Assembly: GCA_947650365.1 (NCBI GenBank) | Contig: CANTAL010000022.1 | Location: 1,756,831-1,820,830 of the forward strand | Reading direction: 5' to 3' | DNA from: Chamaelirium japonicum | Taxonomy: Eukaryota > Streptophyta > Magnoliopsida > Liliales > Melanthiaceae | Length of the DNA stretch: 64,000 bases | Part shown: one piece after another, positions 2,667 to 64,000 of the stretch | Layout of the letters: the number at the start of each line of letters is the position of its first letter | Numbering within the stretch: position 1 is the first letter of the stretch | Made by a program: the position numbers and the translations under genes | The notes under the pieces: generated by a model | Database searches by the model: none | The model's input: only the letters and a program-made list of their open reading frames with translations | Told to the model about the DNA's origin: nothing

Positions 2667-3557
2667 ATGGAGAACATCCGGAAAGCCGCGCTGAGGCCGT
2701 GGAAGAAAGGCCCGACGCGGGGGAAGGGCGGCCCCCAGAACGCGGCCTGCGAGTACCGGGGGGTGCGGCAGCGGACGTGGGGCAAGTGGGTGGCCGAGAT
2801 TCGGGAGCCCAAGAAGCGGACTAGGCTCTGGCTCGGCTCCTTCGCCACCGCCGAGGAGGCCGCGCTCGCCTACGACGAGGCCGCGAGGCGGCTCTACGGC
2901 CCCGACGCCTACCTCAACCTCCCCCACCTCCGCTCCAGCCTCAACCCCGCCATCACCGGCAAGCCCCACCGCTTCAAATGCTTCCCTTCCAACAACCTCA
3001 CCTCCATGCTCCCCTCGTGCGGCCTGCTCAATCTCAGCGCCCAGCACAATGTCCACGCCATCCACCGCAAGCTTCAGGAGCTCAAGAACTCCAAAACCTC
3101 TTCCTCCTCCTCCTCCTCCTCTCCCCTTCCTCCCAATTCTTCTTCACAGCCCACTGCCCTGCCCATAGAAACCACCCTGTTTGAGGGCTCGGTCGTTGGC
3201 GTGGAGGACCCGCCGGCCCTCCCACCTGAGAAGCAACCGGCCATTCGCGCCGAGAAGCCTCAGATTGATCTGAACGAGTTCCTTCAGCAATTAGGTGTGC
3301 TGAGACCGGACAGCGGGCCGGACGGCGGGGAGGCGTCCGGAAGCGCGCCATTGCCGGAACCCGCCCCGGAGGGCAGTGGGGCGGCATCGGGGATCTTGGA
3401 TTTCGATCAGGGCAGCTTCGATTGGGACATGCTGGTGGAGATGCGCGCTCTCGACGATCGCCCACCCGGTGGAGATGGCGGGTTGCAGGGCGACGACGAC
3501 GACGACAACGACGGGCACGAAGAGCTAAGCTTGCCTATTTCCATATGGGATCTCTGA
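2667..3557 (+). CDS. DREB2F: DREB2F-like AP2/ERF transcription factor
   Basis: A 296-aa single-exon protein. A basic N-terminal stretch [14 protein letters not shown] (residues 13-26), typical of A-2 DREB factors and likely part of the nuclear signal, leads into one AP2 domain (about 29-88). That domain has [19 protein letters not shown] and ends in AYLNLPHL. The WVAEIREP core keeps the Val and Glu associated with DRE (RCCGAC) recognition. Outside the AP2 domain it shares blocks I recall from Arabidopsis DREB2F: the [10 protein letters not shown] region (117-126), [11 protein letters not shown] (200-210), FDWDMLVEM (251-259) and a C-terminal SIWDL. A serine run (145-152) and an acidic Asp run (276-280) look like linker and activation segments. 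Expected role: nuclear activator or modulator in dehydration and heat response. The gene is very GC-rich compared with its surroundings. The start has no earlier in-frame ATG that fits the family. The assignment to the DREB2F branch rests on memory of the family, not on a search. Confidence 0.93.
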
Positions 3558-8009: not shown

Positions 8010-8882
8010 TGACATTACATAAACTTGTGGGTGCAAATTTTGGCCAGAAGGCTCACAGACAGCTAGACCCACCAGCCCTGCCTGGGGGGTCCACAGAGAT
8101 TACAGCGAGACCTACTAGCCCTGCCTAGGGAGTCCACCCAGGCGACAGCGGGACCCACCAGCCCTGCTTGGGGGGTCCACCCAGGCGACAGCGGGACCCA
8201 CCAGCCCCACCTGGGGGGTCCACCGAGGCGACAGCGGGACCCACCAGCCCCGCCTGGGGGGTCCACAGAGACGACAGCGGGACCCACCAGCCCCGCCTGG
8301 GGAGTCCACAGAGACGACAGCAGGACCCACCAGCCTTGCCTGGGAAGTCCACAGAGACAATAGCAGGACCCGCCAGCCCTGCCCGGGGGATCCCCATATA
8401 CAATAGCAGAAACCGCCATTTGCCCCGGTTTTCTTTCCAGAGATTCCTATAAATAGTAGACCATACCAATGTAAAAAGGATCTGAAATTGAATCTCTGAT
8501 TCCAGAACCAGACTTTCAAAAACCCAGAGCTCTGATATCTAACCCTTCGATATTCCATTTCCTTCGATCTTCTTTTCGAAAGAGATTAGTGACACTCGGC
8601 CTGTCAAGGTCACTTCGAGCAAAGTGTTAGTGAATTCGGGTTGCTCCCTATAGCACAGAGACGTAGGCTTCGGCTGAACTCCGAGATCATATCTAGTGCC
8701 AATCTGCCATCCTTACTCTTCAAAGTCTAAAAGCTCAAAGGCTCCTACGAACGACATTCCAAAGGCTCCTTCAAACGACATTCGAATCAACAATGTAGAC
8801 AAACACTCGATCAGACCTTCGACTCAACTCGATTGACTGGTTGGGTGGAGTCTTCGGGTCAGCACGAAGATCATCCCCCACA
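8010..8882 (+). repeat. 5' LTR of the Tat element
   Basis: The right edge is set by the TTTGCCACCATCTGTGGG stretch (about 8884-8901), the usual primer-binding context of Tat elements. TATAAATA at 8448-8455 marks the LTR promoter. The left edge (TGACATTACAT) is a guess, because no second LTR exists for comparison and a Helitron ends 5 bp away. Confidence 0.5.
8066..8390. repeat. 43-bp tandem repeat in the U3 part of the Tat LTR
   Basis: About eight units built around GGGACCCACCAGCCC, GCCTGGGG and GTCCACAGAGACGACAGC, with period near 43 bp. The array ends about 60 bp upstream of the LTR TATA box. The several GC-rich reading frames across it are repeat artefacts. Confidence 0.9.
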
Positions 8883-10789: not shown

Positions 10790-13700
10790 TTGCTGGATCC
10801 ACCAAATCTCTACCGGTCCATCATCTATTGCTGTGCGAACCAATGTCTTCGGCATCCATGGAGTGTTGCATAATCAAATGTTGATAGGGAAAGAGGTCGA
10901 TCGGCAAGTGCGACGCATCTTCAATGTTCGCTCTGCAGCGAACAAAGAAGATACCTGGGTCGAGAAACCTGTCAAAGGTCTGGCGTGGCCTTCGATCATC
11001 TTCAACGACTCCGATCTTCAAGAAGTCTATACTCCGTATCAGGATCCCCTGGTCCTACGGCTCATCATCGATGGGAGCATTGTTAACCGCATCCTCGTCA
11101 ACACGGGGAGCTCGATCGATATTATATACTCTGCTTCAACGGGGAGCAGAGTATAACCACGGGTGAATCAAGATTCACCCTGAACCTAAGCCGGGAGACT
11201 CGAGTCTCCGTGAGGTTCGCCATCGTCGAAGGAACGTCCAACTACAACATCATCCTCGGGCGATCATTCCTCCATCAGATCAATGCAATCTCCTCCTCCT
11301 ATCATCAACTCCTCAAGTTTGCAACAGGAGAGGGTATTGTCTGCATCCGAGGAGATCAACAGGCAAGGCGATCCTGTGAAGCAGCTGCATCAAAGGCAGA
11401 TCATTGAGTAGATCTGGCGCCACCAAAGCATCCGAGAGATGAAGCTGGTACTTCTTCAAGATAGTAACCAAAGGAGATCCCATTGTCCTAACCTCCGTCA
11501 ATCGAGTGGGAAGCTTCACCTTCAATCGAAGAAATCATTTGAATAAACATCGACAATGGTGATCTCCCTCGAGAGACATTCATGGGTACCAGTCTCAGCG
11601 ACGTAGAAGTGCGAGACATGGTATCCTTCCTTTAGTCCAACATTGACGTCTTCGCTTGGTGTTTCGAAGATATGCCCAGGATCAACCCGGATGAAGCGTG
11701 TCATCGACTCGCCATCAAAGAAGGAGCGAAACCCGTCAAGCAAAAACCTTGGGCAATCCGACCAGAACGTCAAGCTACAGTTCAAGAGGAGATCAGTAAG
11801 TTACTCGCGGCAGGCTTCATTCGTGAAGTAGAGTACCCTACTTTGATCTCCAACATCATCGTAGTTCCTAAGAAGAATGGGAAGATCCGGGTCTGCATCG
11901 ACTTCACTATCCTCAATAAGGCATGCCCCAAAGACCCATTCCCCTTACTAAGGATAGACAGACTCGTTGACGCCACTGCTGGCCATGATCTCCTATCTTT
12001 CATGGACGGGTACTCCGGGTATAACCAAATTCTTCTACATCCGGACGATCGGGAGAAGACATGCTTTTTGACAAACAAAGGCCTCTACTGCTACAACGGC
12101 CAGTTGGCCTCAAGAACACTGGATCAACTTATCAAAGATTAGTCACGAAGATGTTCGAAGAACAAATTGACCGCAACGTCGAAGTCTATGTCGACAATCT
12201 CCTCACCAAGTGCTTCAGTCGTGAGAGCCATCCCTCCGATCTGGCAGAAACATTTCAAATCCTCCGAAAGTATCGCATGAAGCTCAACCCAGCTAAGTGT
12301 GCCTTCGAAGTTAAATCGAGCAAATTCATGGGTCACCTTGTGACCAGGAGGGGCATCGAAGCCAACCCCGACCAAATTCGAGCAATCCTCGATATGCCCT
12401 TGCCTACCAATCGGAAGGAAATGCAACGCCCCACTCGAAGATTAGCTGCTCTTAACCAGTTCATCTCCAAATCTTCCGACAAGTGCAAGCCACTCTTCGA
12501 TAAATTACGGAAGACAGACACATCCGGATGGAGTCCAACTTGCGAGCAAGCCTTTCAAGACGTCAAGAACTATCTCATGCGAGCTCCTATCTTGATAGCT
12601 CCACTTGCAAAAGAAGATCTCTGGCTCTATCTCGCCGTTACCGATCAACCTATCGGTGCAGTCTTGGTCAGTGGAAGAGAAGGCGCAGAACGTCCAGTCT
12701 ACTACATCAGCCATACCCTTCTTCCGGTAGAGACTCGCTATTCAAAGATCGAGAAGGTCACGCTGGCCTTGCTCATGGCATCTCGACGGCTCTGACCCTA
12801 CTTTGTCTCCCACCCGATAACGGTTGTCTCGGAGCACCCACTCAAAGACATCCTCAATAAGACAGGTCGAGCGGGTCGAATAATAAAATAGGTAATCAAG
12901 ATGAGTGCTCTTGGGATTCAGTTCGAACCTCGCACTTCTCTCAAAGGGTAGGCAGTTGTTGATTTCCTTGCCGACTTCCCCGTGGAGGATCCCATCACTT
13001 GGGAGGAAGACATCGAAATGCGCCTCGAAGACAGTGATGAACCTCCACTTAATCCTGTTCCAAAGACCCTCACTCAGAGCCTTGAAGCTCCCACTACTTC
13101 GTTAACTCGATGGAAACTCTACACTGATGGGGCTTCAAGTGCGATCGGTTTGGGAATTGGGACAGTCTTAATATCCCTCGAGCTCGATCATCTTCAAAAG
13201 GCTATTCTCCTTGGGTTCAATGCCACCAATAATGAAGCCGAGTATAAGGCACTTATTTCTGGATTAGAGATTGCTGAATCCCTGGGGGTAGATCGACTCA
13301 CCATCTACAGCGACTCCCAGCTGATAATTAGGCAGATCAACGGAGAGTACACAACACAAGAAGAAAGGATACAACATTATCTAGCTCTGGTGCGATATCA
13401 CCAACAACGTTTCGCTAGCACCGAATTCATCCAAATCCCGAGAGCAGAAAATCGAGAGGCAGATGCCCTAGCTAATGCTGCTTCGATGCTCGGAGACTCG
13501 CTCAGAGAAAGGAAAATTCAGATCGACTATTAAGAGTCACCCAAGGCTACCATTGAGCAACAGATCGTTGCCATGACTGAAGGATCTGGGGGTTGGAGAC
13601 AGCCAACCTTCAATCTTACCATGGTGCATGAACTCGGAGATTGGAGACAGCCAAGCTTTGACTTCTTCAAACAAGGTAAAATGCCAGAAGATCCAATCCA

Positions 13701-14880
13701 AGCCAGAAGACTCCAAAGGAAACTTCCATGCTATAGTCTCCAAGAAGCAGATCTCTACTTCAGATCACACAGTGGGATGCTACTCAAATGTGTTGGTCCC
13801 CTACAAGCGAAGGCGATCCTAACCGACATTCACTCCGGGGCATGTGAAAATCATTTAGGTGGAAGATCTCTCGAAGCCAAAACAAAACTTCAAGGTTACT
13901 ATTGGCCAACCATGGTAAAGGATGCTCGCCAGGTCATTCAAAGGTGCGAGCCTTGTCAACGACACACCCGAGCCATCCATCTCCCAATAGATGAACTCCA
14001 TCCATTAACAAGTTCTTGGCCCTTCCACCAATGGGGGTTGGATTTCTTGGGTCCTTTTCCACCATCACCAATCAAGAAGAAGTATCTGTTATTGGCCACA
14101 GATTACTTCACCAAGTGGGTGGGAACAGTGCCACTCTTTCGAGAGACCGATGATGAATTCATCAAGTTCATCAGATATAACATCTTCTCTAGGTTTGGCA
14201 CACCCCAAGTCCTGATTGCTGACAACGGAGCTTAATTCGATTTTGATAATTTCGAGACTTCTGTCTAAACCACGGGATCAAACTTTTCTACTCAATACCG
14301 AGGTACCCTCAATGTAATGGTCAAGCCGAAGCCTCTAACAGAGCTATCCTCGGTCTACTCAAGAAGAAACTGGATGATAAGAAAGGATTATGGGAGAAGA
14401 TCCTATCGGAGGTCTTATGGGGCTATCGAACTACTCTGAGAAGATCGACTAGGTTTTCACCCTTTCTCCTAACCTATGGATCAGAAGCAGTTCTCCCAAC
14501 GGAAGCCATATCTAACACTCTGAAGACCAGAGCAATCGAAGAGGGGGTAAACGACGAGCTTTGAGCTAATAACCCCGACTTCTCGAAAGAGTTACGTGAT
14601 CAAGCAACTATCCACATTGCCGATTACCAACAGAAGATCAAATAAGCCTACGATTAGAAGGTTAGTAGAAGGCACTTTCTGATCGGAAGCCTAGTTCTCA
14701 GAGCAGTCTTCTCCAATACAAGGGAACACGACAGTGGGAAACTAGCTCCCAACTGGAAAGGACTTTACATCATCGAATCCATGGGAGGCAAAGGATCTTA
14801 TCGCCTGATCTCGCCAGAAGGAGATAGAATACCATGAGCTTGGAATGCTAGACATCTCAAAATGTTTTATCCTTGATGTA
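10790..14880 (+). mobile_element. Tat pol region: protease, RT, RNase H, aRNase H, integrase (fossil)
   Basis: An aspartic protease-like block lies near 11,050-11,300. A Ty3-type RT lies at about 11,670-12,400 (SNIIVVPKKNGKIRVCIDF, MDGYSGYNQILLHPDD), and the RT-linked RNase H at about 12,420-12,800. A second RNase H follows at 13,090-13,530 (WKLYTDGASSAIGLGIG, NNEAEYKALISGLEIA). The integrase zinc region and core lie at about 13,790-14,880 (LQGYYWPTMVKDA, CEPCQRH, HQWGLDFLGPFPPSP). Two RNase H domains in this order define Tat. The region is not functional; it has multiple breaks. Confidence 0.88.
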
Positions 14881-14956: not shown

Positions 14957-15350
14957 GTTTTGAGTTGTGAGACAGCACAACTCTTAACTACCAGATCGAT
15001 TAACAAGTTGGGGTGTTCATGTTGTGACACAACCCCTTACATGCAGATGTTAAACAGTTTTGGGTTGTAAGACAGCACAACCCTCAACTACCAGATCGGT
15101 TAACAAGTTTGGAAGTTCGTGTTGCGACACGATCCCTTACAAGCAGATGTTAAATGGTTTCGGGTTGTGAGACAGTACAACCCTTAACTACTAGATCGTT
15201 TAACAAGTTTGGGTGTTCGTGTTGCGACACGACCCTTACAGGCAGATGTTAAACGGTTTCGGGTTATGAGACAGCACAACCCTCAACTACTAAATCAATT
15301 AACAAGTTTAGGTATTCGCGTTGCGACACGACCCCTTACAGGCAGATGTT
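14957..15350. repeat. 99-bp tandem repeat, four units
   Basis: Units start near 14,957, 15,056, 15,157 and 15,255 with GGTTGTGAGACAGCACAACC, followed by CTACCAGATCG, TTAACAAGTTTGGGTGTTCG and GTTGCGACACGACCCCTTAC. They directly follow the integrase end, in the 3' non-coding zone where Tat elements commonly carry arrays. Confidence 0.92.
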
Positions 15351-15537
15351 AAACATTCATTCAACCATTCCATTCAAAACATTAATATCCATAACATTTA
15401 TCCTAGAAGAGATTCCATTTCGAACATCCGAAATAAGTTTTTTCTATTACTCAAAACTTTGCAGATACAAATTGTTATAGATACAAGTCTTACATATGCA
15501 AAGAATGAAAGAGAATACATCAGGGTTTTGCTACACT

Positions 15538-28554: not shown

Positions 28555-28625
28555 CGTCTAACCAGGCGAAACGTCAGACCAGGAAAAGCGTCAGACCAGG
28601 CGAAGTGTCGGACCAGGTGGAACAC
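28555..28625. repeat. Short roughly 20-bp tandem repeat
   Basis: Four imperfect units of the type AAACGTCAGACCAGG, in the region upstream of the antisense block. Confidence 0.7.
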
Positions 28626-28639
28626 CGATAGCCTTAGAA

Positions 28640-29935
28640 GACTTCGTCCGTTCGACAGGCAGATGATCGGGCGAATTTCCAAAGAATCTGGCAAAAAACC
28701 ATGTTTTTTGTCCGATCGTCTCAACCTCCATCGGTTGAAATTGACCGATCGGTCAAAATTATCTGATCAGGCAATCTTGATCGATTGCCTTAGAAGACTT
28801 TGGCTGTTCGACAGGCAGACAATCGGGCGAATTTCAAAAGAAACTGGCAAAAAACTATATTTTTTGCCCGATCGCCTCAACCTCCACCGGTTGAAATTGA
28901 CTGATCGGTCAAACTTGTCCAATCGAAAAATCTTGACCGATTGCCTTACAAGACTTTGCCCGTTCAACAGGCAGACGATCGGGCGAATTTCCAAAGGATA
29001 TGGCAAAAAATCATGTTTTTTGCCCGATCATCTCAACCTCCACCGGTTGAAATTGACCAATCGGTCAAACTTGTCCGATCGGGCAATGTTGATCGATCGT
29101 CTTAGAAGACTTCGCCCATTTGACAGGCCGACGATCGGGAGAATTTCCAAAGAATCTGGCAAAAAACATTGTTTTTTTCCCGATCGTCTCAACTTCTACC
29201 GGTTGAAATTGACCGATCGGTCAAACTTATCCGATCGGATAATTTTCACTGATCGCCTTACAAGACTTCGCCTGTTCGACAGGCAGACGATCGGGTGAAT
29301 TTCCACAGGATCAGGCAGAAAACGTGCTTTTTTGCCCGATCGCCTCAACCTCCACCGGTTGAAATTGACCGATTGGTCAAAACTGTCTGATCGGACATGT
29401 TTGACCGATCGGACAAATTCGACCGATCAATCGGTTTTTCACAGGATCGGGCAGAAAATAAGCTTTTCTACATGATCGCCTCAATCTCCACCAGTTGAAT
29501 TTGACCGATCGGTCAAAACTGTCCGATCGGACAATTTTGACCGATCGGACAAATTCGACAGATCAGTCGATTTCCCAAAGAATTGGGTAGAAAATATGCT
29601 TTTCTGCCCGATTGCCTCAATCTCTACCGGTTGAATTTGACCGATCGATCAAAACTGTCCGATTGGTTAATTTTGACCAATCAGACAAATTCGACGGATC
29701 GGTCAGTTTTTCACAGGATCGGGCAGAAAATGAGCTTTTCTGCCCGATCGCCTCAACCTCCATCGGTTGAATTTGATCGATCAGTCAAAAATGTCCGATC
29801 GGACAATTTTGATCGATCGGACAAATTCGACAGATCGGTCGGTTTGCCACAGGATCGGGCAGAAAACGAGATTTTCTGCCCGATTGCCTCAACCTCCACC
29901 GGTTGAATTTGACCGATCGGTCAAAACTGTCCACG
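28640..29935. repeat. Hairpin-rich tandem array, 157- and 138-bp units
   Basis: Nine units are marked by CTCAACCTCCACCGGTTGAA. The first four have a period of about 157 bp and the later ones about 138 bp. Nearly every unit carries the palindrome TTGACCGATCGGTCAA (with variants). The 138-bp units also contain an inverted repeat; the clearest is 29,717-29,730 with 29,736-29,749 (GATCGGGCAGAAAA and its complement), a perfect 14-bp stem with a 5-nt loop. It lies in the 3' zone of the Tat element. Confidence 0.93.
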
Positions 29936-50635: not shown

Positions 50636-51334
50636 ATAACATTTCTCTTCTTGCGTGATATGGGGGTTGTCCCTATGCCACTGAACCTATTACCTTAGTT
50701 TGTGACACCACCTGAAATTATGATTTCATGAAAACCCCAAAGTGTCATAGCATGACAAAACCAATCGGCATTAAGTGTCACTTTGCTCATCTCATCTCAT
50801 ATCAATTGAGGAAGTAGTGGTGGTGTGTTTGGTTGCCAGATAAACAGAAAAGGAAAACAAAAAACACCACCTACTTTTTCTGCACAATTGTGTGTTTGCT
50901 TGATAAGAAAGTGCGGTCTCCACAAGAAAATAATTTTGTGGGACTTAATGATCGATCTCCGACAAGAGATCAAATTTAGCTAAAGGACATCCATATTTCA
51001 AGGACAAAAATACCTCGCCACTCATTTCTAAACTAAACCAAATCATAAACCCTAAGATCTATAGGTCATGGGATGAACCCTAGACCTAATCCTAATCCAA
51101 ACCAAACCCCTTTGTTTGTCGCCGATCTCTCATCTTCACTGCTCGTCACCACCGAGACACAACGGCGAGTAGCTGCTGCTCGCGCTCGTTGCCGCCTCTG
51201 CTTCTCGCGCCGCTGCTCGCCACCGTTTCTGTTGCGCCTCCGCTTCTCATGCCGCTGCTCGCCACCGCTTCTCAGGAAAAACCTAAAGAAGGGGAGGACA
51301 GGGGTGAGGGCTTTTGCGACATTTGACGGATCGT
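50636..51334. other. Flank of the minisatellite, no supported gene
   Basis: AT-rich, then from 51,060 GC-rich with a Pro/Arg-rich frame (51,073-51,342) that runs into the minisatellite. That frame contains a 36-bp spaced duplication of CGCTGCTCGCCACCG and has no family features. It could be the 5' end of a gene destroyed by the array, but I cannot support that. Confidence 0.35.
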
Positions 51335-54300
51335 ACGAATGAATTAGAATGGATACATTCGTGCGAATGAATTAGAATAGATCGTACAAATGAATTAGAA
51401 TGGATACATTCATGCGAACGAATTTGAATGGATCGTACGAATGAATTAGAATGGATTGTGCGAATGAATTAGAATGGATCGTATGAATGAATTAGAATGG
51501 ATACATTCGTGCAAATGAATTAGAATGGATCATACGAATGAATTAGAATAGATACATTCTTGCGAATGAATTAGAATGGATCGTACGAATGAATTAGAAT
51601 GGATCGTACAAATGAATTAGAATGGATATGAATGAATTAGAATGGATATATTAGTGCGAATGAAATAGAATGGATCGTACAAATGAATTAGAATAGATAC
51701 ATTCATGTGAATGAATTAGAATGGATTGTACGAATGAATTAGAATGGATCATACCAACGAATTAGAATGGATACATTTGTGCAAATGAATTAGAATGGAT
51801 CGTACCAATGAATTAGAATGGATCGTATGAATGAATAAGAATGGATACATTCGTGTGAATGAATTAGAATGGATCGTACGAATAAATTAGAATGGATACT
51901 TTCATGCGAATTAATTAGAATGGAGCGTACAAATGAATTAGAATGGATCGTGTGAATAAATTAGAATGGATACATTCGCACGAATGTATCCATTCGTTCG
52001 AAAGAATTATAATGGATCGTATGAATGAATTAGAATTGATCGTTTGAATGAATTAGAATGGATCGTACGAATGAATTAGAATGGATACATTTGTGCGAAT
52101 AAATTAGAATGGATACAATACGTTGCTGAATGTCATGAGAGAACTAGCCCATAAGTCAGTACTGTGACTAGAGAGCATTAGTCTGAATCAATTTTAAGAC
52201 AAATGGTAGTCGGGATAGTATAGTCGTACTAGTTCCCTCGATTAATGCTAGAGAACGAATGTATCCACTCTAATTCATTCGTACGATCCATTCTAATACA
52301 TTCGTACGATCCATTCTAATTCATTTGTACGATCCAGTCTAATTCATACGATCCATTCTAACTCATTCGCATGATTATATCCATTCTAATTCATTCGTAC
52401 GATCCATTATAATTCACTCGTATGATCCATTCTAATTCATTCGTTTGGTCCCTTCTAATTCATTCACACGAATGTATCCATTCTAATTCATTCGTATGAT
52501 CCATTCTAATTCATTCATACGATCCATTCTAATTCATTCATTCGCACGATCTCTAATTCATTCGTACAATCCATTCTAATTCATTCGTACGATCCATTTT
52601 AATTCATTCGTATGAATGTATCCATTCTAATTCATTCGTACGATCCATTCTTATTCATTCGTACGATCTATTCTAATTCATTCGTACGATCCATTCTAAT
52701 TCATTCGCATGAATGTATCCATTCTAATTCATTTATACGATCCATTCTAATTCATTCGTATGATCCATTCTAATTCATTCGTACGAACGAATGTAGCCAT
52801 TCTAATTCATTTGTATGATCCATTCTAATTCATTCGTACGATCCATTCTAATTCATTCGTATGAATGAATTAGAATAGATTGTACGAATAAATTAGAATG
52901 GATCGTACGAATGAATTAGAATGGATCGTGTGAATGTCTAATTCATTCGTACAATCCATTGTAATTCATTCATACGATCCATTCTAATTCATTCGCATGA
53001 ATGTATCTATTCTAATTGATTCGTACGATCCATTCTAATTCATTCGTATGATCCATTCTAATTCATTCGCACGGTCCATTCTAATTCATTCGTAGGATCC
53101 ATTCTAATTCATTTATACGATCCATTCTAATTCATTCATACGATCCATTATAATTCATTCGTACAATCCATTCTAATTCATTTGCACGAATGTATCTATT
53201 CCTATTCATTCGTACGATCCATTCTAATTCATTCGTATGATCCATTCTAATTCATTCGTACGATCCCTTCTAATTCATTCTAATTCATTCATATGATCCA
53301 TTCTAATTCATTCGTACAATCCATTCAAATTCATTCGTACAATCCATTTTAATTCTTTCGTATGATCCATTCTAATTAATTCGTACGATCCATTCTAATT
53401 CATTCGTACGTTCTATTCTAATTCATTCGCACAAATGTATCCATTCTAATTCATTCGTACGAAAGATTCTAATTCATTCGTACGATTCATTCTATTTCAT
53501 TCGCATGAATGTATCCATTCTAATTCATTCGTACGATCCATTCTAATTCATTCGCACGAATATATATATCCAATCTAGTTCATTCGTACGATCCATTCAA
53601 ATTCATTCTCACGAATGTATCTGTTCTACTTCATTCATACACATTAATTAGAATGGATCGTACGAATGAATTAGAATGGATCATACGAATGAATTAGAAT
53701 GGATACAATATAGATCGCACGAATGAATTAGAATGGATCATATGAATGAATTAGAATGGATCGTACGAATGAATTAGAATGGATACATTCGTGCGAATGA
53801 ATTAGAATGGATTGTACGAATGAATTGGAATGGATACATTCGAATGAATTCGAACGAATGAATTGGAGTGGATACATTTGTGCGAATAAATTAGAATGGA
53901 TCGTACGAATGAATTAGAATGGCCAGATTCGATCATGCGAATGAATTAGAATGGATCGTACGAATGATTTAGAATGAATCATATGAATAAATTTGAATGG
54001 AATCTACAAATCAATTAGAATGGATACATTCATGCGAATGAATTAGAAAGGATCGTACGAATGAATTAGAATGGATCGTAAGAATGAAACGTATGAATGA
54101 ATTAGAATGGATCGTACAAATGAATTAGAATGGATCGTACGAATGAATTAGAATAGATACATTTGTGCGAATGAATTAGAATGGATCATACGAATAAATT
54201 ATAATGAATCGTACGAATGAATTAGAATGGAATGCATTCACACGAATGTATCCATTCTAATTTATTCGTACGATCCATTCTAATTCTTTAGAATGGATAA

Positions 54301-57300
54301 AGTCTTACGATCCATTCTAATTCATTCGTACGATCTTAATCGCACGAATGAATTAGAATGGATCGTACGAATGAATTAGAATAATTCGTACGAATGAAAT
54401 AGAATGGATACATTTGTGCGAATGAATTAGAATGAATCGTACGAACGAATTAGAATGGATCGTACGAATGGATTAGAATGGATACATTCGTGTGAAAGAA
54501 TTAGAATGGATCATACGAATGAATTAGAATGGATCGTACGAATGAATTAGAATGGATACATTCGTGCGAATGAATTAGAATGGATCGTATGAATGAATTA
54601 GAATGGATCGTACGATAATATTAGAATGGATTGTACGAATGAATTAGAATGGATACGTTCATGCTAATGAATTAGAATGGATTGTACGAATCAATTAGAA
54701 TGGATAGTATGAATGAATTAGAATGGATACATTCTTGCGAATGAATTAGAATGGATCGTACGAATGAATGATAATGGATCGTTCGAATGAATTAGAATGG
54801 ATACATTCGTACGAATGAATTAGAATGGATCGTATGAATGAATTAGATTGGATCATACGAATGAATTAGAATTGACGAATGAATTAGAATGGATCGTACG
54901 AATGAATTAGAATGGATTATAAGAATGAATTAGAATGGATACATTTGTCCGAATGAATTAGAATGGATCGTACGAATAAATTAGAATGGCTACATTCGTT
55001 CATGCGAATGAATTAGAATAGATTAGAATGGATTGTATGAATGAATTAGAATGGATCGTACGAAAGAATTAGTATAGAATTAGAATGGATCGTACGAACG
55101 AATTAGAATGGATCATACGAATGAATTAGAATGGATACATTAGTGTGAATGAATTAGAATGGATCATACGAATCAATTAGTATTTGCCTTACGAATGAAT
55201 TAGAATGGGTCGTACGAATGAATTAGAATGGATCATATGAATAAATTAGAATGGATCGTACGAAGGAATTAGAATGGATCGTACGAATGAATTAGAATGG
55301 ATACATTCATACGAATTAGAATAGATCGTACGAATGAATTAGAATGGATACATTCGTGCGAATGAATTGGAATGAATCAATCGAATGAATTAGAATGGAT
55401 CGTACGAATGATTTAGAATGGATTGTACGAATGAATTATAATGGATACATTCGTGCGATTGAATTTGAATGGATCATATGAATGAATTAGAATAGATCAT
55501 ACGAATGAATTAGAATGAATCGTGCGAATGAATCGTACGAATGAATCGTACGAATGTATCCATTCTGGGAATGAATTAGAATGGATTGTACGAATGAATT
55601 CAAATGGATCGTGCGAATGAATTAGAATGGATATATTCGTGCGAATGAATTAGAATGGATACATTCGTCCGAATGAATTTGAATGGATCAGACGAATGAA
55701 TTAGAATGGATCGTACGAATGAATTAGAATGGATCATGCGAATGAATTAGAATGGATACATTCATGCGAATGAATTAGAGTGGATATATTCGTGCGAATG
55801 AATATGAATGGATCGTACGAATGAATTAGAATGGATCGTGTGAATGAATTAGAATGGATACATTCGTGTGAAAGAATTATATTGGATCATACGAATAAAT
55901 TAGAATGGATCGTACGAATGAATTAGAATGGATCGTACGAATAAATTAGAATGGATACAATTGTGCGAGTGAATTAGAATGGATCGTACGAATGAATTAG
56001 AATGGATCATACGAATGAATTAGAATGTATTGTACGAATAAATTAGAATAGATACATTCGTGCGAATGAATTAGAATGGATCGTACGAATAAATTAGAAT
56101 GGATCGTATGAATGAATTAGAATGGATCGTACGAATAAATTAGAAATGATCGGGCGAATGAATTAGAATGGATCGTACGAATGAACTAGAATGGATACAT
56201 TCGTGTGAATGAATTAGAATGGATCGTACGAATGAATTAGAATGGATACATTCGTGCGAATGAATTTGTACTGATGATACGAATGAATTAGAATGGATCA
56301 TACGAATGAATTAGAATGGATCGTGCGAATGAATTAGAATGGATACATTCATGCGAATGAATTAGAATGGATCGTACGAATGAATTAGAATGGATCGTAC
56401 GAATGAATTAGAATGAATCGTGCGAATAAATTATTATTGATCGTACGAATGAATTAGAATATATACATTCGTCCATATGAATTTGAATGGATCGTACGAA
56501 TGAATTAGAATGGATCGTACGAATGAATTAGAATGGATCATACAAATGAATTAGAAAGGATTGTGCGAATGAATTAGAATGGAACGTACGAATGAATTAG
56601 AATGGATACATTCGTGCGAATGAATAAGAATGGATCGTACGAATGCATTAGAATTGATGCATTCGTGCAAATGAATTAGAATGGATCTACGAATGAATTA
56701 GAATGAATCGTACGAGTGAATTAGAATAGATCGTGCGAATGAATTAGAATAGATCGTATGAATGAATTAGAATGGATACATTCGTGCGATTGAATTAGAA
56801 TAGATCGTTCGAATAAATTAGAATAGATCGTATGAGTGAGTTAGAATGGATCATACGAATGAATTAGAATGGATCATGCGAATGAATTAGAATGGATCGT
56901 ATGAATGAATTAGAATGGATACATTCGGGGGAATGAATTAGAATGGATCGTACGAATTAATTAGAATGGATCGTACGAAAGAATTAGAATGGATCGTACG
57001 AATGAATTAGAATCGATCGTGCAAATGAATTAGAATGGATCGTTCGAATGAATTAGAATGGATACATTCGTGCGAATGAATTAGAATGGATCGCACGAAT
57101 GAATTAGAATGGATCGTATGAATGAATTAGAATAGATCATACGAATTAATTAGAATGGATTTTGCGAATGAATTAGAATGGATCGTTCAAATGAATTAGA
57201 ATGGATATATTCATACGAATGAATTAGAATGGATCGTATGAATGAATTAGAATGGTTCGTAAGAATAATACATTCGTGCGAATGAATTAGAATGTATCGT

Positions 57301-60300
57301 ACGAATGAATTAGAATAGAACGTACGAATTAATTTGAATGGATTGTGCGAATGAATTAGAATGGATCGTGCGAATGAATTAGAATCGATACATTAGTGCG
57401 AGTGAATTAGAATGTATCGTACGAATGAATTAGAATGGATCGTGCGAATGAATTAGAATGGATCATACGAATGAATTAGAATGGATACATTCGTGTGAAT
57501 GAATTAGAATAGATCGTATGAATGAATTAGAATGGATCGTGCGAATGAATTAGAATGGATTGTACGAATGAATTAGAATGGATACATTCGTGCGAATGAA
57601 TTAGAATGGATCGTACGAATGAATTAGAATGGATCGTATGAATAAATTAGAATGGATCGTACGAATGAAATAGAATGGATCGTACGAATGAAGTAGAATG
57701 GATCATACGAATGGATTAGAATGGATACATTCGTGCGAATGAATTAGAAAGGACCGTATGAATGAATTAGAATGGATCGTATCTTATGAATGAATTAGAA
57801 TGAATCATGCAAATGAATTTGAATGGATCATACGAATTAATTAGAATGGTTACATTAGTACGAATTAATTAGAATGGATCATACGAATGAATTTGAATGG
57901 ATCGTACGAATGAATTAGAATGGATCGTGCGAATGAATTATAATGGATCGTACGAATGAATTTTAATGGATACATTCGTGTGAATAAATTAGAACAGATC
58001 GTATGAATGAATTAGAATGGATCGTATGAATGAATTAGAATAGATCATACGAATGAATTAGAATGGATCATACGAATGAATTAGAATTGATATATTCGTG
58101 CGAATAAATTAGAATGGATCGTATGAATGAATTTGAATGGATCGTATGAATAAATTAGAATGGATCGTATGAATGAATTAGAATGGATACATTCGTGCGA
58201 ATGAATTAGAATGGATCGTACGAATGAATTAGAATGGATCGTACGAATGAATTAGAATGGATACATTCATGCGAATGAATTAGAATGGATCGTATGAATG
58301 AATTAGACTGGATCGTACGAATGAATTAGAATGGTTCGTGCGAATGAATTAGAATGGATCGTACGAATGAATTAGAATGGATAAATTCGTGTGAATGAAT
58401 TAGAATGGATCATATGAATGAATTAGAATGGATAGTATGAATGAATTAGAAAGGATCGTACGATCCATTCTTATTCATTCGCACGAATGTATCCATTCTA
58501 ATTCATTCGTACATTCCATTCTAATTCATTCACACAATCCTTTCTAATTCATTCGTATGATCCATTCTAATTCATTCGTACGATCCATTCTAATTCATTC
58601 GTACGATCCATTCAAATTCATACGGACGAATGTATACATTCGAATTTATTCGTACGATCCATAATAATTTATTCGCACGATTTATTCTAATTCATTCGTA
58701 CGATCCATTCTAATTCATTCGTATGATTCATTCTAATTCATTCGTATGAATGTATCCATTCTAATTTATGCGCACGATCCATTCTAATTTATTCACACGA
58801 TCCATTCTAATTCATTCGTACGATCCGTTCTAATTCATTCGCACAATCCATTCTAATTCATTCGTACGATCCATTCTAATTCATTCGCATGATCTATTCT
58901 AATTCATTCGTACTATCCTTTCTAATTCATTCGTACGATCCATTCTAATTCATTCGCACAAATGTTTACATTCTAATTCATTCGTATGATCCATTCTAAT
59001 TCATTCGCACGATCCATTCTAATTCATTCGTACAATCCATTCTAATTCATTCGCATGAATGTATCCATTCTAATTCATTCGTACGATCCTTTCTAATTCA
59101 TTCGCACAATCCATTCTAATTCATTCGTACGATCCATTCTAATCCATTCACACTAATGTATCCTTTCTAATTCATTCGTACGATCTATTCTAGCATTCGC
59201 ATGATCCATTCTAATTCATTCGTACGATCCATTCTAATTCATTCGTACAATCACTTCTAATTCATTCGCACGAATGTATCCATTCTAATTCATTCGTACG
59301 ATCCATTCTAATTCATTCGCACGAGTGTATAAATTCTAATTCATTCGTATGATCCATTCTAATTCATTCATAAGATCCATTCTAATTCATTCATACGATC
59401 CATTCTAATTTATTCGTACAATCCATTCTAATTCATTCGTACGACCCATTCTAATTCAATCGCACGAATGTATACATTCTAATTCATTCGTATGATCCAT
59501 TCTAATTCATTCGTACGATCCATTCTAATTAATTCACACGAACGATTCTAATACATTCGTACCATATGTTCTAATTCATTTGTACGATCCATTCTAATTC
59601 ATTCGCATGAATGTATCCATTCTAATTCATTCGTACGATCCATTATAATTCATTAGTACGAATGCATCCATTCTAATTTATTCGTACGATCCATTCTAAT
59701 TGTTTCACATGATCCATTCTAATTTATTCTTACGATCCATTCTAATTCATTCGTACGATCCATTATAATTCATTCGCACGAATGTATCTATTCTATTTCA
59801 TTCATACGATCCATTCTAAATCACTCGCACGAATGTATCCGTTTTATTTCATTCGTATGATACATTCTAATTCATTCATATGATACATTCTAATTCATTC
59901 GTATGTCCCATTCTAATTCATACGCACGAATGTATCCATTCTAATTCATTCGTACGATCCATTCTAATTCATTCGAACGATCCATTCTAACTAATTTGCA
60001 CGATCCATTCTAATTCATTCGTACCATCAATTCTAGTTCATTCGTACGATCCATTCTAATTCATTTGCACGAATTTATCAATTTTAATTTATTCGTATGA
60101 TCCATTATAATTCATTCACACGATCCATTCTAATTCATTCGTACGATCGATTCTAATTCATTCGTACGATCCATTCTAATTCATTCGCATGAATGTATCC
60201 ATTCTAATTCGATCGTGCGATTCGTACGTTCCATTCTAATTCATTCGCTCAATCCATTCTAATTAATTCGTACGATCCATTCTAATTCATTTGTACGATC

Positions 60301-61616
60301 CATTCTAATTCTTTCACACAAATGTATCCATTCTAATTTATTCGTACGATCCATTCGAATTCATTCGCACGATCCATTCTAATTCATTCGTACGATCAAT
60401 TTTAATTCATTCGTACGATCCATTCTAATTCATTCGCACAATCCATTCTAATTCATTCATACGATCCATTCTAATTCATTCGTACGATCCGTTCTAATTC
60501 ATTTGCACGAATGTATCTTTTTTAATTCATTCGTACGATCCAATCTAATTCATTCGCACGATCCATTCTAATTCATTCGCACGAACGTATCCATTCTATT
60601 TCATTCATATGAACCATTCTAATTCATTCGCCCGATCCATTCTAATTCATTCATACGATCCATTCTAATTCATTTATACGATCCATTCTAATTCATTCGG
60701 ATGAATGTATCCATTGTTATTCATTCATACGATCCATTCTAATTCATTTGCATGATCCATTCTAATTCATTCGTTCGATCCATTCTAATTCATTCATACG
60801 ATCCATTTTAATTCATTCGTACGATCCATTCTAATTCATTCGCACGAACGTATCCATTCTAATTCATTCGTATGAACCATTCTAATTCATTCGCACGATC
60901 CATTCTAATTCATTCATACGATCCATTCTAATTTATTCGTACGATCCATTTTAATTCATTCGGATTAATGTATTCATTCTAATTTATTCATACGATCCAT
61001 TCTAATTCATTCGTACGATCCATTCTAATTCATTCGTATGATCCATTCTGATTCATTTGCACGATCCATTCTAATTCATCCGCACGAATGAGTCCATTCT
61101 AATTCATTCGTATGATCCATTCTAATACATTCGTAAGTTCCATTCTAATTCATTCGTACGATCCATTCTAATTCATTCGTATGATCCATTCTAATTCTTT
61201 CGCACGAATATATCCATTCTAATTCATTTGTACGATCCATTCTAATACATTCGTGCGATCCATTCTAATTCATTCACACGAATGTATCCATTCTAATTCA
61301 TTAATATGATCCATTCTAATTCGTTCGCACGATCCATTCTAATTCATTGGTACGATCCATTCTAATTCTTTTGTACGATCGATTCTAATTCATTTGTACG
61401 ATCCATTCGAATTCATTCGCACAAATGTATCCATTCTAATTCATTCATACCATCCTTTCTAATTCATTCGCACGATCCATTCTAATTCATTCGTACGATC
61501 CATTTTAATTTACTTGTACGATCCATTCTAATTCATTCGTACGATCCATTCTAATTTATTCGCAAGATGCAGCCCCCCCACGATCCATTCTAATTCATTT
61601 GCACGATCCATTCTAA
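51335..61616. repeat. 10-kb minisatellite of 23- and 28-bp units in inverted blocks
   Basis: The unit is GAATGAATTAGAATGG plus ATCGTAC (23 bp) or plus ATACATTCGTGC (28 bp, a 5-bp ACATT insertion); 28-bp units recur every few copies. At this unit size there are about 400 copies, individually diverged. Orientation alternates: forward 51,335-52,125; reverse 52,256-52,860; forward 52,862-52,935; reverse 52,936-53,640; forward 53,640-54,235; short reverse to about 54,345; forward to 58,455; reverse to 61,616. Borders are by eye. A 23-bp period cannot maintain a frame, and there is no coding. Confidence 0.95.
52126..52255. other. Unique spacer inside the minisatellite
   Basis: About 130 bp without repeat units separates a forward block from a reverse block. 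It includes GTCAGTACTGTGACTAG and ATAGTCGTACTAGTTCCC. No gene or element termini recognised. Confidence 0.6.
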
Positions 61617-61664
61617 GTCATGGGGGGGCTGCATCTGGGGGTGGAGATGCAGCCCCCCCATGAC
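61617..61664. other. Perfect 19-bp hairpin at the array/LINE junction
   Basis: GTCATGGGGGGGCTGCATC (61,617-61,635), a 10-nt loop, then the exact reverse complement (61,646-61,664). A third copy of GATGCAGCCCCCCCA lies 80 bp to the left at 61,566-61,580, inside array sequence. Both candidate start codons of the LINE ORF lie in this hairpin. Confidence 0.92.
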
Positions 61665-64000
61665 CCAAATCTCATTCGGATTCTAGTAGGGAAGGCAGCC
61701 GGTGGCTTGGGTTCAGCGGGTGAAGGAATTTCGTCTAGATCTGTTGCAGATTTGGAGGTGGGTAAGACTCGTTTGGAGCTCGAGGTCTCTTCCCAACCTT
61801 CTAGTGATCCCACCATAGCAGATTTCTATTCTAAGGGGCAAGGAGGAGGAGGTGTGTGCATTTCTTCTTTGTCGGATGGAGGAATGCATGGTTCGAGACT
61901 TATATCTGGTGGATCAGATACCAGATCTGGTAGTTTGGGTACTAGATCTGGTGCGATAGATTCTTCTCTGGCTCACAAGACAGTTGGAAGGGGATCGGGT
62001 CCAAGAAGTGTTGATTCGAGTCCCTTGGGAGCTGTTGGACAAGCTGATTGCGGCTCTGGAGATGTGAAGACCAGAAGTGGTCTTGTTAGAGGATCTTGTC
62101 CGACTAGGCATGCTACAAACCCTCGAGCTGCAGATGATCAAGAATTGGGCCTGGGTGACGAAGGGGAGTTCCCGCCCCTCTGCTTTACCCAACACAGCCC
62201 AAGGAGTGCTTTTGCCCACCAGGTATTCGATGGAAAACCTGCAACAGCAGGGGACTTTGGATCGTCCCAGGTAAGTGCAGCAGGCAAGCAGCAGCTGGGT
62301 GCCTGCCAAGGATTGCTGGGGTCTACCGGTATTGTTGGCTCTGCAGGAGAGACATCTAGAGAAGGCCAGGTGTTTGTGGGAGTGCCCGAGAGAGGTAACA
62401 GTGATGCGGGTTGTGCAAATGTTTGGACCTCTTCTCCAAGTCCTCTTCCCACCAATCTTCCTCTAGAGAAATTAAGGTTGCGTATCATTGAGACGGGAAT
62501 TTTCGAAGGTCAAAAAGTTGCAATCTGCCCAACTCATGAGCTGGAAGCTAACTGCAAAAAATGGGAGCATACTTTAGTGGGGTTTGTGCTTGGGAGGCGG
62601 CCATTCTACATCCATCTCAAGAATTTTATTCAACGCAATTGGCAGCCAAAGGGAAGATTGGACATTCTCTCAAGAGAGAATGGGGTGTTTTGGTTTAAGT
62701 TTGAGCTTGAAGCTGACTACACCCGAATTCTCGAAGGTAAAACTTGGCATTTTTTTGGTCGACCTTTGATTGTGAGGAAATGGGCTAGAGGCATGTGTAG
62801 TGATAGGGAGTTAGTCTCAAAAATCCCAATCTGGGCTAATTTTCCTAATCTTGAAGGGGATATGTGGACTGAACCCATGTTAAGTCGATTAGGGAGTGTT
62901 TTTGGTACTCCTATATACATGGACCAAGCTACTGCTGGAGGTACTCGTGCCCAGTTTGCTCGGATTTGTGTGGAGATAAATGTAGAAGACTCACTTCCAA
63001 GCCGAGTTCAAGCGAGGAATGATAAAGGTGAGTTTCACTCCTGGCAGCCGGTGAAATACGATTGGATCCCAACAAGGTGCAAAGCTTGTAAAAGTTTTGA
63101 TCATAGCGATTCTAATTGCTCCAAACATCCAAAACTGGTTCCAGCTAGGGCTAAGCGTGTGTGGCAGACCAAACCTTCCCAAGGGATTGATCCCCTCGCT
63201 CATTCTGACAAGGGAAAGGCTAGATTAGAGGAAGAATGTCATGTAATTGGTGGGATTCCTGCTAAGTTGAGGGCCCCACATCTAAAGTATACGGATCCTG
63301 TGCCTACTAGCTCCCGATTTTCAGCCCTCTTGGAGGTAGGAGATGAAGATAGTGGTGTTGCGGGTGGGGTTGATGTTGTGGCTAGTGATGTCACGCTCCC
63401 TGGAGCTGGGGATGGTGGTGATGTTACAGTGGTAGCAGATGGTGTAGATGGTGCTTATGTATCACAGTCTGCTGGTCTTGGAGAGGGCTCTGCTTCATTA
63501 GCAATGCCTGAAGGTGTTGTTACACAGCTTGTGGGCGAAATTGCTGAGAACGTAGCTGATGATTCAGGTATTGATGGTGCTGACGTTGCTGTAACACAGC
63601 CTGGTGGCGATGTTACACAGCTTGTGGGTGCTGCTGTTGCCACAGTTGTTGTTACGCAGATCCAACACAGTGATGGACTGCAGGATGGTGTGAGGGGCTG
63701 TGTTGCAAAGGGTGTCAGTGGTGGTGATGGAGTAGTTGTTTGTGCTGGTAATAGAGCAGTTTTGAATGTTACGCAGCCTGATGTTACTGCAGATTTGAAT
63801 GTTACGCAGCCTGATGTTGCTGCAGTTTTGAATGTTACGCAGCCTGATGTCGCAGTAATAGCTGATGTTACGCAGCCTGATGTTTGTGCAGATTTGAATG
63901 TTACGCAGGCTGATGTTGCAATAGCTGATGTTACACAAGTAGAGACTGCTGCCGAATGTCAAGAGGCAAATGTTTTGCAAGTAGAGGCTACTGATGTTAC
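61620..64000 (+). CDS. LINE (L1-type) ORF1 protein, partial at the window edge
   Basis: Open without a stop from ATG 61,620 (or 61,647; a TAA lies just upstream at 61,614) to the window end, at least 793 codons. The N-terminal third is Ser/Gly-rich and low in complexity. A DUF4283-like region (about 300-395) contains WEHTLVGFVLGRRPFYIHL, VFWFKFELEADYTRILEGK and a WARGMCSDRELVSKIPIWA block. A CX2CX4HX4C zinc knuckle (487-500, CKACKSFDHSDSNC) follows. These together mark the nucleic-acid-binding ORF1 of plant L1 LINEs. From about residue 715 the chain consists of repeats of LNVTQPDV with short spacers. ORF2 (endonuclease and RT) would lie beyond the edge. An undamaged frame suggests a recent insertion. 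A host gene with a domesticated DUF4283 domain is possible but less likely. Confidence 0.85.
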   Translation, partial: MGGLHLGVEMQPPHDPNLIRILVGKAAGGLGSAGEGISSRSVADLEVGKTRLELEVSSQPSSDPTIADFYSKGQGGGGVCISSLSDGGMHGSRLISGGSDTRSGSLGTRSGAIDSSLAHKTVGRGSGPRSVDSSPLGAVGQADCGSGDVKTRSGLVRGSCPTRHATNPRAADDQELGLGDEGEFPPLCFTQHSPRSAFAHQVFDGKPATAGDFGSSQVSAAGKQQLGACQGLLGSTGIVGSAGETSREGQVFVGVPERGNSDAGCANVWTSSPSPLPTNLPLEKLRLRIIETGIFEGQKVAICPTHELEANCKKWEHTLVGFVLGRRPFYIHLKNFIQRNWQPKGRLDILSRENGVFWFKFELEADYTRILEGKTWHFFGRPLIVRKWARGMCSDRELVSKIPIWANFPNLEGDMWTEPMLSRLGSVFGTPIYMDQATAGGTRAQFARICVEINVEDSLPSRVQARNDKGEFHSWQPVKYDWIPTRCKACKSFDHSDSNCSKHPKLVPARAKRVWQTKPSQGIDPLAHSDKGKARLEEECHVIGGIPAKLRAPHLKYTDPVPTSSRFSALLEVGDEDSGVAGGVDVVASDVTLPGAGDGGDVTVVADGVDGAYVSQSAGLGEGSASLAMPEGVVTQLVGEIAENVADDSGIDGADVAVTQPGGDVTQLVGAAVATVVVTQIQHSDGLQDGVRGCVAKGVSGGDGVVVCAGNRAVLNVTQPDVTADLNVTQPDVAAVLNVTQPDVAVIADVTQPDVCADLNVTQADVAIADVTQVETAAECQEANVLQVEATDV
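63760..64000 (+). repeat. Coding repeats encoding VTQPDV in ORF1
   Basis: Units of 30-36 bp with GTTACGCAGCCTGATGTT recur at least six times to the window end. Related VTQ units are scattered from about 63,500. All are multiples of three, so the frame is kept. A composition bias toward Val, Ala and Asp precedes them. Confidence 0.85.

Follow-up and report, generated by a model that had tools for sequence, protein, structure and literature searches.

A two-strand satellite array matching Chio of Chionographis japonica, and the palindromic core at its strand switches

The array and its neighbours in the window

The window, as we call the whole 64-kb stretch of DNA analysed here, is C34:1756831-1820830, where C34 is a 2.08-Mb contig outside the twelve large contigs of an assembly of 1,518,659,071 bases (3253 contigs). 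When a two-strand ring HMM was run over the whole window, satellite was confined to 51328-61621, and a run on 51000-62000 alone gave the same limits; the extent of 51335..61616 given in a preliminary description of this DNA was essentially right. The HMM cut the array into 439 unit segments, 398 of them complete, which bears out the estimate of about 400 copies of a 23/28-bp unit; 298 of the complete units are 23 bp long and 86 are 28 bp long. The array is not limited to 10 kb, as had been supposed, because its right boundary is an insertion beyond which it resumes in the same orientation. No satellite lies to the left of 51328 within the window, which makes this position the left edge of the array, or of this stretch of it. 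The features are listed below; block and spacer limits are those of the HMM, and the blocks bear the name of the satellite to which we assign them in the next section.

51328..52117, plus strand: Chio block 1, the left edge of the array
52118..52254, no strand: non-satellite spacer of 137 bp between blocks 1 and 2
52255..52853, minus strand: Chio block 2
52845..52876, no strand: switch from minus to plus centred exactly on the palindromic core, a 32-bp near-perfect palindrome with the centre ATTCGTATGAAT
52854..52936, plus strand: Chio block 3
52937..53640, minus strand: Chio block 4
53641..54231, plus strand: Chio block 5, with a core-centred switch at 53640
54232..54335, minus strand: Chio block 6, with an internal micro-switch at 54287-54310
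54336..58463, plus strand: Chio block 7, the longest, with 177 unit segments and a 19-bp micro-inversion at 55547-55565
58453..58466, no strand: switch from plus to minus on the perfect palindrome GGATCGTACGATCC
58464..61621, minus strand: Chio block 8, with 134 unit segments, carrying on past the insertion
61622..64000 (the part in the window), plus strand: LINE-like insertion interrupting block 8, with a DUF4283 open frame (E 3.3e-26)

Eight blocks alternate in strand, where at least seven had been claimed, and they are separated by seven strand changes, six of them direct and one across the spacer, in which no unusual fold was found (z -0.32). With a cheaper switch cost, the HMM returned 10 direct switches, the extra ones bounding micro-inversions of 24 bp and 19 bp.

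The commonest short unit is GGATCGTACGAATGAATTAGAAT. A self-complementary word had been noted in the unit, and a palindrome is indeed present, but the consensus form is the 8-bp TCGTACGA, which occurs 115 times in the array, whereas the 10-bp TTCGTACGAA has only 4 occurrences. On the strand opposite to TCGTACGA, the consensus reads TTCGTACGA. The 28-bp unit is the 23-bp unit with ACATT added after GGAT and, in most cases, G for A in the core. Its letters, GGATA CATT CGTGCG AATG, fit an inverted copying of the AATG arm across the core, by which the longer unit may have been derived from the shorter one.

In blocks 7 and 8, the 28-bp units are spaced far more evenly than expected by chance (0 of 5000 shuffles were as even); the corresponding fractions of shuffles were 0.02, 0.05, 0.85, and 0.16 in blocks 1, 2, 4, and 5. 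The higher-order repeat suggested earlier is upheld as a multi-unit order in this spacing, but besides the 28-bp unit itself only one base position marks that order consistently in both long blocks.

Behind the DUF4283 frame, the insertion has a non-coding tail and then a poly-A that ends at C34:1821569 (about window position 64739). Satellite resumes in the same strand at C34:1821570 (position 1570 of the piece L028), which gives the insertion a length of about 3.1 kb, and it fills the piece L029 to C34:1840000, the last base examined. The insertion looks like an ORF1-only LINE derivative and has no room for a second open frame of full length. Its 5' end (window 61565-61664) folds back on itself: a perfect inverted repeat of 20 bp, GTCATGGGGGGGCTGCATCT, encloses a loop of 8 bp. 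The word is present a third time (95% match) some two satellite units further upstream, as might result if several template switches had occurred while the 5' end was copied.

A 296-aa open frame with an AP2 domain lies at window 2667-3557, about 48 kb from the array edge, and is a putative gene for a transcription factor of the AP2/ERF type, with no intron apparent. At 11672-14235, domains of a retroelement reverse transcriptase, an RNase H, and an integrase are found in separate frames, probably the remains of a decayed Ty3/gypsy-type element. A second tandem array, at 28624-29932, has periods of 156 and 136 bp, with GATCGG-type words and short inverted motifs in abundance, and there are short tandem arrays at 8058-8393 and 14957-15354 with periods of 43 and 100 bp, respectively.

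Identity of the satellite

Although the preliminary description did not recognise the satellite, it is very probably Chio1/Chio2 of Chionographis japonica, which has already been published, alternating orientation included (PMC10264360; PMC12722358). The assignment follows the descriptions given in the accessible parts of these two papers and draws on monomer lengths, a difference of 5 bp plus 1 bp between the monomers, a 9-bp word, abundance, orientation, and assembly statistics. Chio1 and Chio2 are monomers of 23 and 28 bp that are one 5-bp deletion and one substitution apart (Kuo et al., 2023, PMC10264360), the short form being described as the one with the deletion; in the window, 23- and 28-bp units are intermixed, with ACATT present or absent and A or G in the core. 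Chio arrays are megabase-sized and mix forward and reverse copies (PMC10264360), in what a 2025 paper calls a "frequently alternating orientation" (PMC12722358), and we found eight blocks in the window and 51 switches over seven stretches of array. A conserved 8-bp dyad symmetry is reported for Chio (PMC10264360), as is a 9-bp word, TTCGTACGA, common to Chio and the 60-bp Chama repeat of Chamaelirium luteum (PMC12722358). As the window's consensus carries TCGTACGA with TTCGTACGA on the other strand, we infer that the published dyad is TCGTACGA.

Chio is the most abundant repeat of its genome, of which it makes up about 16-17% (PMC10264360). In the assembly analysed here, an exact 39-bp word made of two adjacent short units has 1077632 copies (535,170 forward and 542,462 reverse), and its reversed control has 0 copies genome-wide. 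At 233 copies per 64,995 bp of sampled array, this count corresponds to roughly 300 Mb or 20% of the genome, an extrapolation from pieces that were not drawn at random. Each chromosome is described as having seven to eleven spaced, megabase-sized Chio units (PMC10264360). Array was present in 0 of 18 10-kb pieces placed arbitrarily on C1-C12, a piece at 3.0 Mb of C13 was array throughout, and the C34 piece adjoining the window held 8431 bp of array; among the matches listed, core palindromes fall into separate clusters along C1. The published assembly has 12 chromosome scaffolds totalling 1090.73 Mb, an N50 of 81.11 Mb, and a primary length of 1,526,137,861 bp (PMC10264360). Here, C1-C12 range from 137.3 to 69.9 Mb and sum to 1090.67 Mb, the thirteenth contig has 3.9 Mb, and the assembly-wide N50 is reached at C8 (81.107 Mb). 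An exact search for the unit in collections of prokaryote genomes and viruses returned 0 stretches in each, as expected for a plant repeat.

In the holocentric C. japonica, Chio carries the centromeric histone CENH3, as determined by ChIP, and its CpG methylation is high (PMC10264360). Given the ChIP published for the family, this exact stretch would be expected to act as centromere DNA as well. In monomers, mixed strands, dyad symmetry, a share of about one-sixth of the genome, and assembly statistics, the window array is like Chio as described in the accessible text, and nothing separates the two; the window piece itself is the edge of an array, where no recent homogenisation could be detected. 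Because the satellite is already published, the main value of the identification is negative: what had passed for an unknown repeat is already named, and a role is assigned to it.

Strand switches and the palindromic core

We scanned eight pieces (the window and L027-L033), of which L031 contained no array. The junction sample is the remaining seven, that is, the window and six 10-kb pieces, on five contigs and with 64,995 bp of array; it is not a random sample, as two pieces are neighbours of the window on C34 and L030 was picked for its known satellite content. It contains 51 direct switches, about one per 1.3 kb, and the alternation of strands first described in the window is therefore genuine and extends beyond this locus.

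Each junction was scored by its symmetry axis and set against 3000 joins made at random from the same sequences. We used the symmetry axis because a test that asked whether both sides lay in the core gave diffuse posteriors, any point of a palindrome fitting equally. Three of the window's six direct junctions are exactly core-centred (p=0.0028; p about 0.05 at a tolerance of 1-2 bp), which is weak evidence taken alone, and the axis offset of the junction at 54231 was scored as 1, 6, or both, depending on the run. Among all junctions, 17 of 51 are exactly core-centred, compared with 4.8% of random joins. Some junctions are copies, so we merged those at least 93% alike; 12 of the 32 distinct junctions that resulted lie exactly on the CGTACG core, against 4.8% by chance (p about 1.5e-8), and 9 of 26 do so when the window is left out (p about 2e-6). 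Merging at 84%, a threshold at which core junctions may be merged merely through their common palindrome, left 5 of 23 core-centred (p=0.0043), or 3 of 18 once the window was excluded (p=0.053). The core was the commonest single centre at every merging threshold tried. The palindrome had been proposed as a site of rearrangement, and these results mark it as a preferred switch point.

Genome-wide counts point in the same direction. Exact 34-bp core-centred palindromes number 2241 for plus-to-minus switches and 2566 for minus-to-plus switches, and the control palindromes, one per direction, number 542 (GATC-centred, plus to minus) and 141 (AATT-centred, minus to plus). All four figures are raw, copied junctions included. 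The GATC-centred palindrome contains no CpG that could decay, yet it is four to five times rarer than those centred on the core. The product of the window's base frequencies puts the share of units with an intact CGTACG at about 39%, a handicap that the core palindromes bear in the comparison with the GATC-centred one and that is greater still for the AATT-centred palindrome, which has two such words.

It is possible, if somewhat doubtful, that the switch points reflect microhomology at any short self-complementary word and that the CGTACG core is not special. Most of the distinct junctions (20 of 32) are not exactly core-centred, a few of them having GATC- or AATT-like centres by eye, and exact palindromes of both these kinds occur across the genome. 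Against this stand the rank of the core among centres at all merging thresholds and its excess over a GATC-centred word that is spared CpG decay. As the core is the longest palindrome in the unit, microhomology and a hotspot at the core differ only in degree.

The preliminary description also raised hairpin-mediated rearrangement, and the inverted pairs could in principle be snap-back duplications whose arms are copies of each other. We consider this improbable. Many switch centres are perfect or near-perfect palindromes, and at 3 of 29 near-core junctions the similarity of the arms exceeds that of 95% of randomly drawn in-phase pairs, but over all 29 the arms differ by a mean of 21.7 edits per 100 bp, compared with 21.3 in random in-phase segments, so that on average the arms are no more alike than chance pairs. 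Nor, by eye, are the patterns of 28-bp units mirrored across 58463. Old snap-back events whose arms had since decayed or been overwritten would look the same; nevertheless, a true inversion, or a template switch to another place in the array, fits the arms better.

Satellites are prone to misassembly, and the window lies on a 2.08-Mb contig that is not among the twelve large ones. Even so, it is very unlikely that the switches are errors in a repeat that is hard to assemble. They occur at about one per 1.3 kb on five contigs, including the chromosome-sized C1, and one junction is identical letter for letter over 48 bases on C1, C20, and C30. Mixed orientation was also reported by the authors of the assembly, who had 58.5x HiFi coverage from libraries with mean lengths of 14-26 kb, longer than the blocks seen here (PMC10264360).

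Transposons with inverted tandem-repeat ends are known, and some, such as Tetris of Drosophila virilis, have been connected with satellites, but that the array is the body of such a foldback or CACTA-like element is scarcely credible, because it has eight alternating blocks rather than two arms and extends past the window, and because the family forms megabase arrays for which the available text of PMC10264360 reports no similarity to annotated transposable elements. Inspection of the ends and of target-site duplication by eye likewise revealed no two-armed foldback or CACTA-like element.

Copying of switched segments and what it may mean

A 3150-bp stretch of L032 matches itself (96.7% identity) when shifted by about 1.95 kb, and it contains a minus block of about 1167 bp and a plus block of about 793 bp. 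Copying of switches is also seen in the junction that recurs unchanged on C1, C20, and C30. Unequal exchange had been taken to give a single orientation, a premise that fails here, since a direct repeat of about 1.96 kb with both strands in it has been copied in tandem. As mixed-strand repeats are copied, ordinary direct amplification can spread a two-strand texture once a switch has arisen. Within C1:115045593-115190000, copies of the exact AATT-centred palindrome are, judged by eye, about 14.5 and about 20 kb apart in alternation, a spacing that points to a tandem higher-order repeat near 35 kb.

We assessed homogenisation by shuffling base columns among units of equal length, which keeps mutation rates and removes shared ancestry (60 shuffles). 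The window showed no excess of long shared words (34 shared 60-mers against a shuffle mean of 69, and 0 against 0 for 100-mers). L027, L029, L030, L032, and L033 exceeded 60 of 60 shuffles at both 80 and 100 bases, and L028, the next piece inward on C34, exceeded the shuffles only at 46 bases. The edge in the window is thus without detectable recent homogenisation, whereas five of the six other pieces are clearly homogenised. CpG decay in the window is symmetric between strands, with C4 to T at 9.4% and G9 to A at 8.4%, and G5 to A at 20.2% and C8 to T at 19.2%, a pattern that independent loss of methylated CpG would give; the other six pieces show less symmetry. Outside the core, all seven pieces have diverged to about the same degree (3.7-4.3%), so by this measure the window is no older than the others; what it lacks is recent copying.

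We found core-centred switching, mixed-strand repeats, and the edge contrast nowhere in the accessible text of PMC10264360 or PMC12722358. Our additions to a known satellite are modest: a preferred palindromic switch centre, mixed-strand higher-order repeats, and a contrast between array edge and interior.

Two systems described in the literature offer comparisons, each taken from the available part of its source. Chama of C. luteum is centromeric and shares the 9-bp TTCGTACGA with Chio; unlike Chio, it has a 60-bp unit, and its arrays, about 10-15 Mb long, keep to a single orientation and are stated to contain no interspersed retrotransposons (PMC12722358). TmSat1 and TmSat2 of the beetle Tribolium madens form putative (peri)centromeric arrays with "macro-dyad symmetries", in which the strand changes every few kb at conserved inversion sites (PMC13081366). 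The likeness is one of description, and these satellites differ from Chio in having much longer units and predominantly two subarrays per array; TmSat1 has two predominant inversion types, compared with the many different junctions in Chio (PMC13081366).

A two-step process is the most likely origin of the alternating strand. Breaks or template switches at the CGTACG palindrome would join opposite strands, and the resulting mixed-strand segments would then be copied as direct repeats of at least 1 kb, within and between arrays. At the array edge in the window, copying would have stopped, leaving units to decay one by one. We regard the case for the palindrome as the cause of strand switching as evenly balanced; both the involvement of hairpins or breaks and the order of events are inferred from the arrays as they now stand. 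A 2025 paper proposed that TTCGTACGA hairpins might cause breaks and ectopic recombination (PMC12722358), and if switches do prefer the palindrome, that idea, as set out in its accessible text, gains sequence evidence.

A broader proposal, which we put forward tentatively and think less likely than not, is that the centromere palindrome common to the tribe is an inversion hotspot, and that flipped segments have spread between centromere units as mixed-strand higher-order repeats. If this were true, the two-strand texture of the holocentromere would record the process that multiplied the centromere units, and the sister genus, in which the 9-bp word is also present but each array keeps to one strand, would be without the flipping step.
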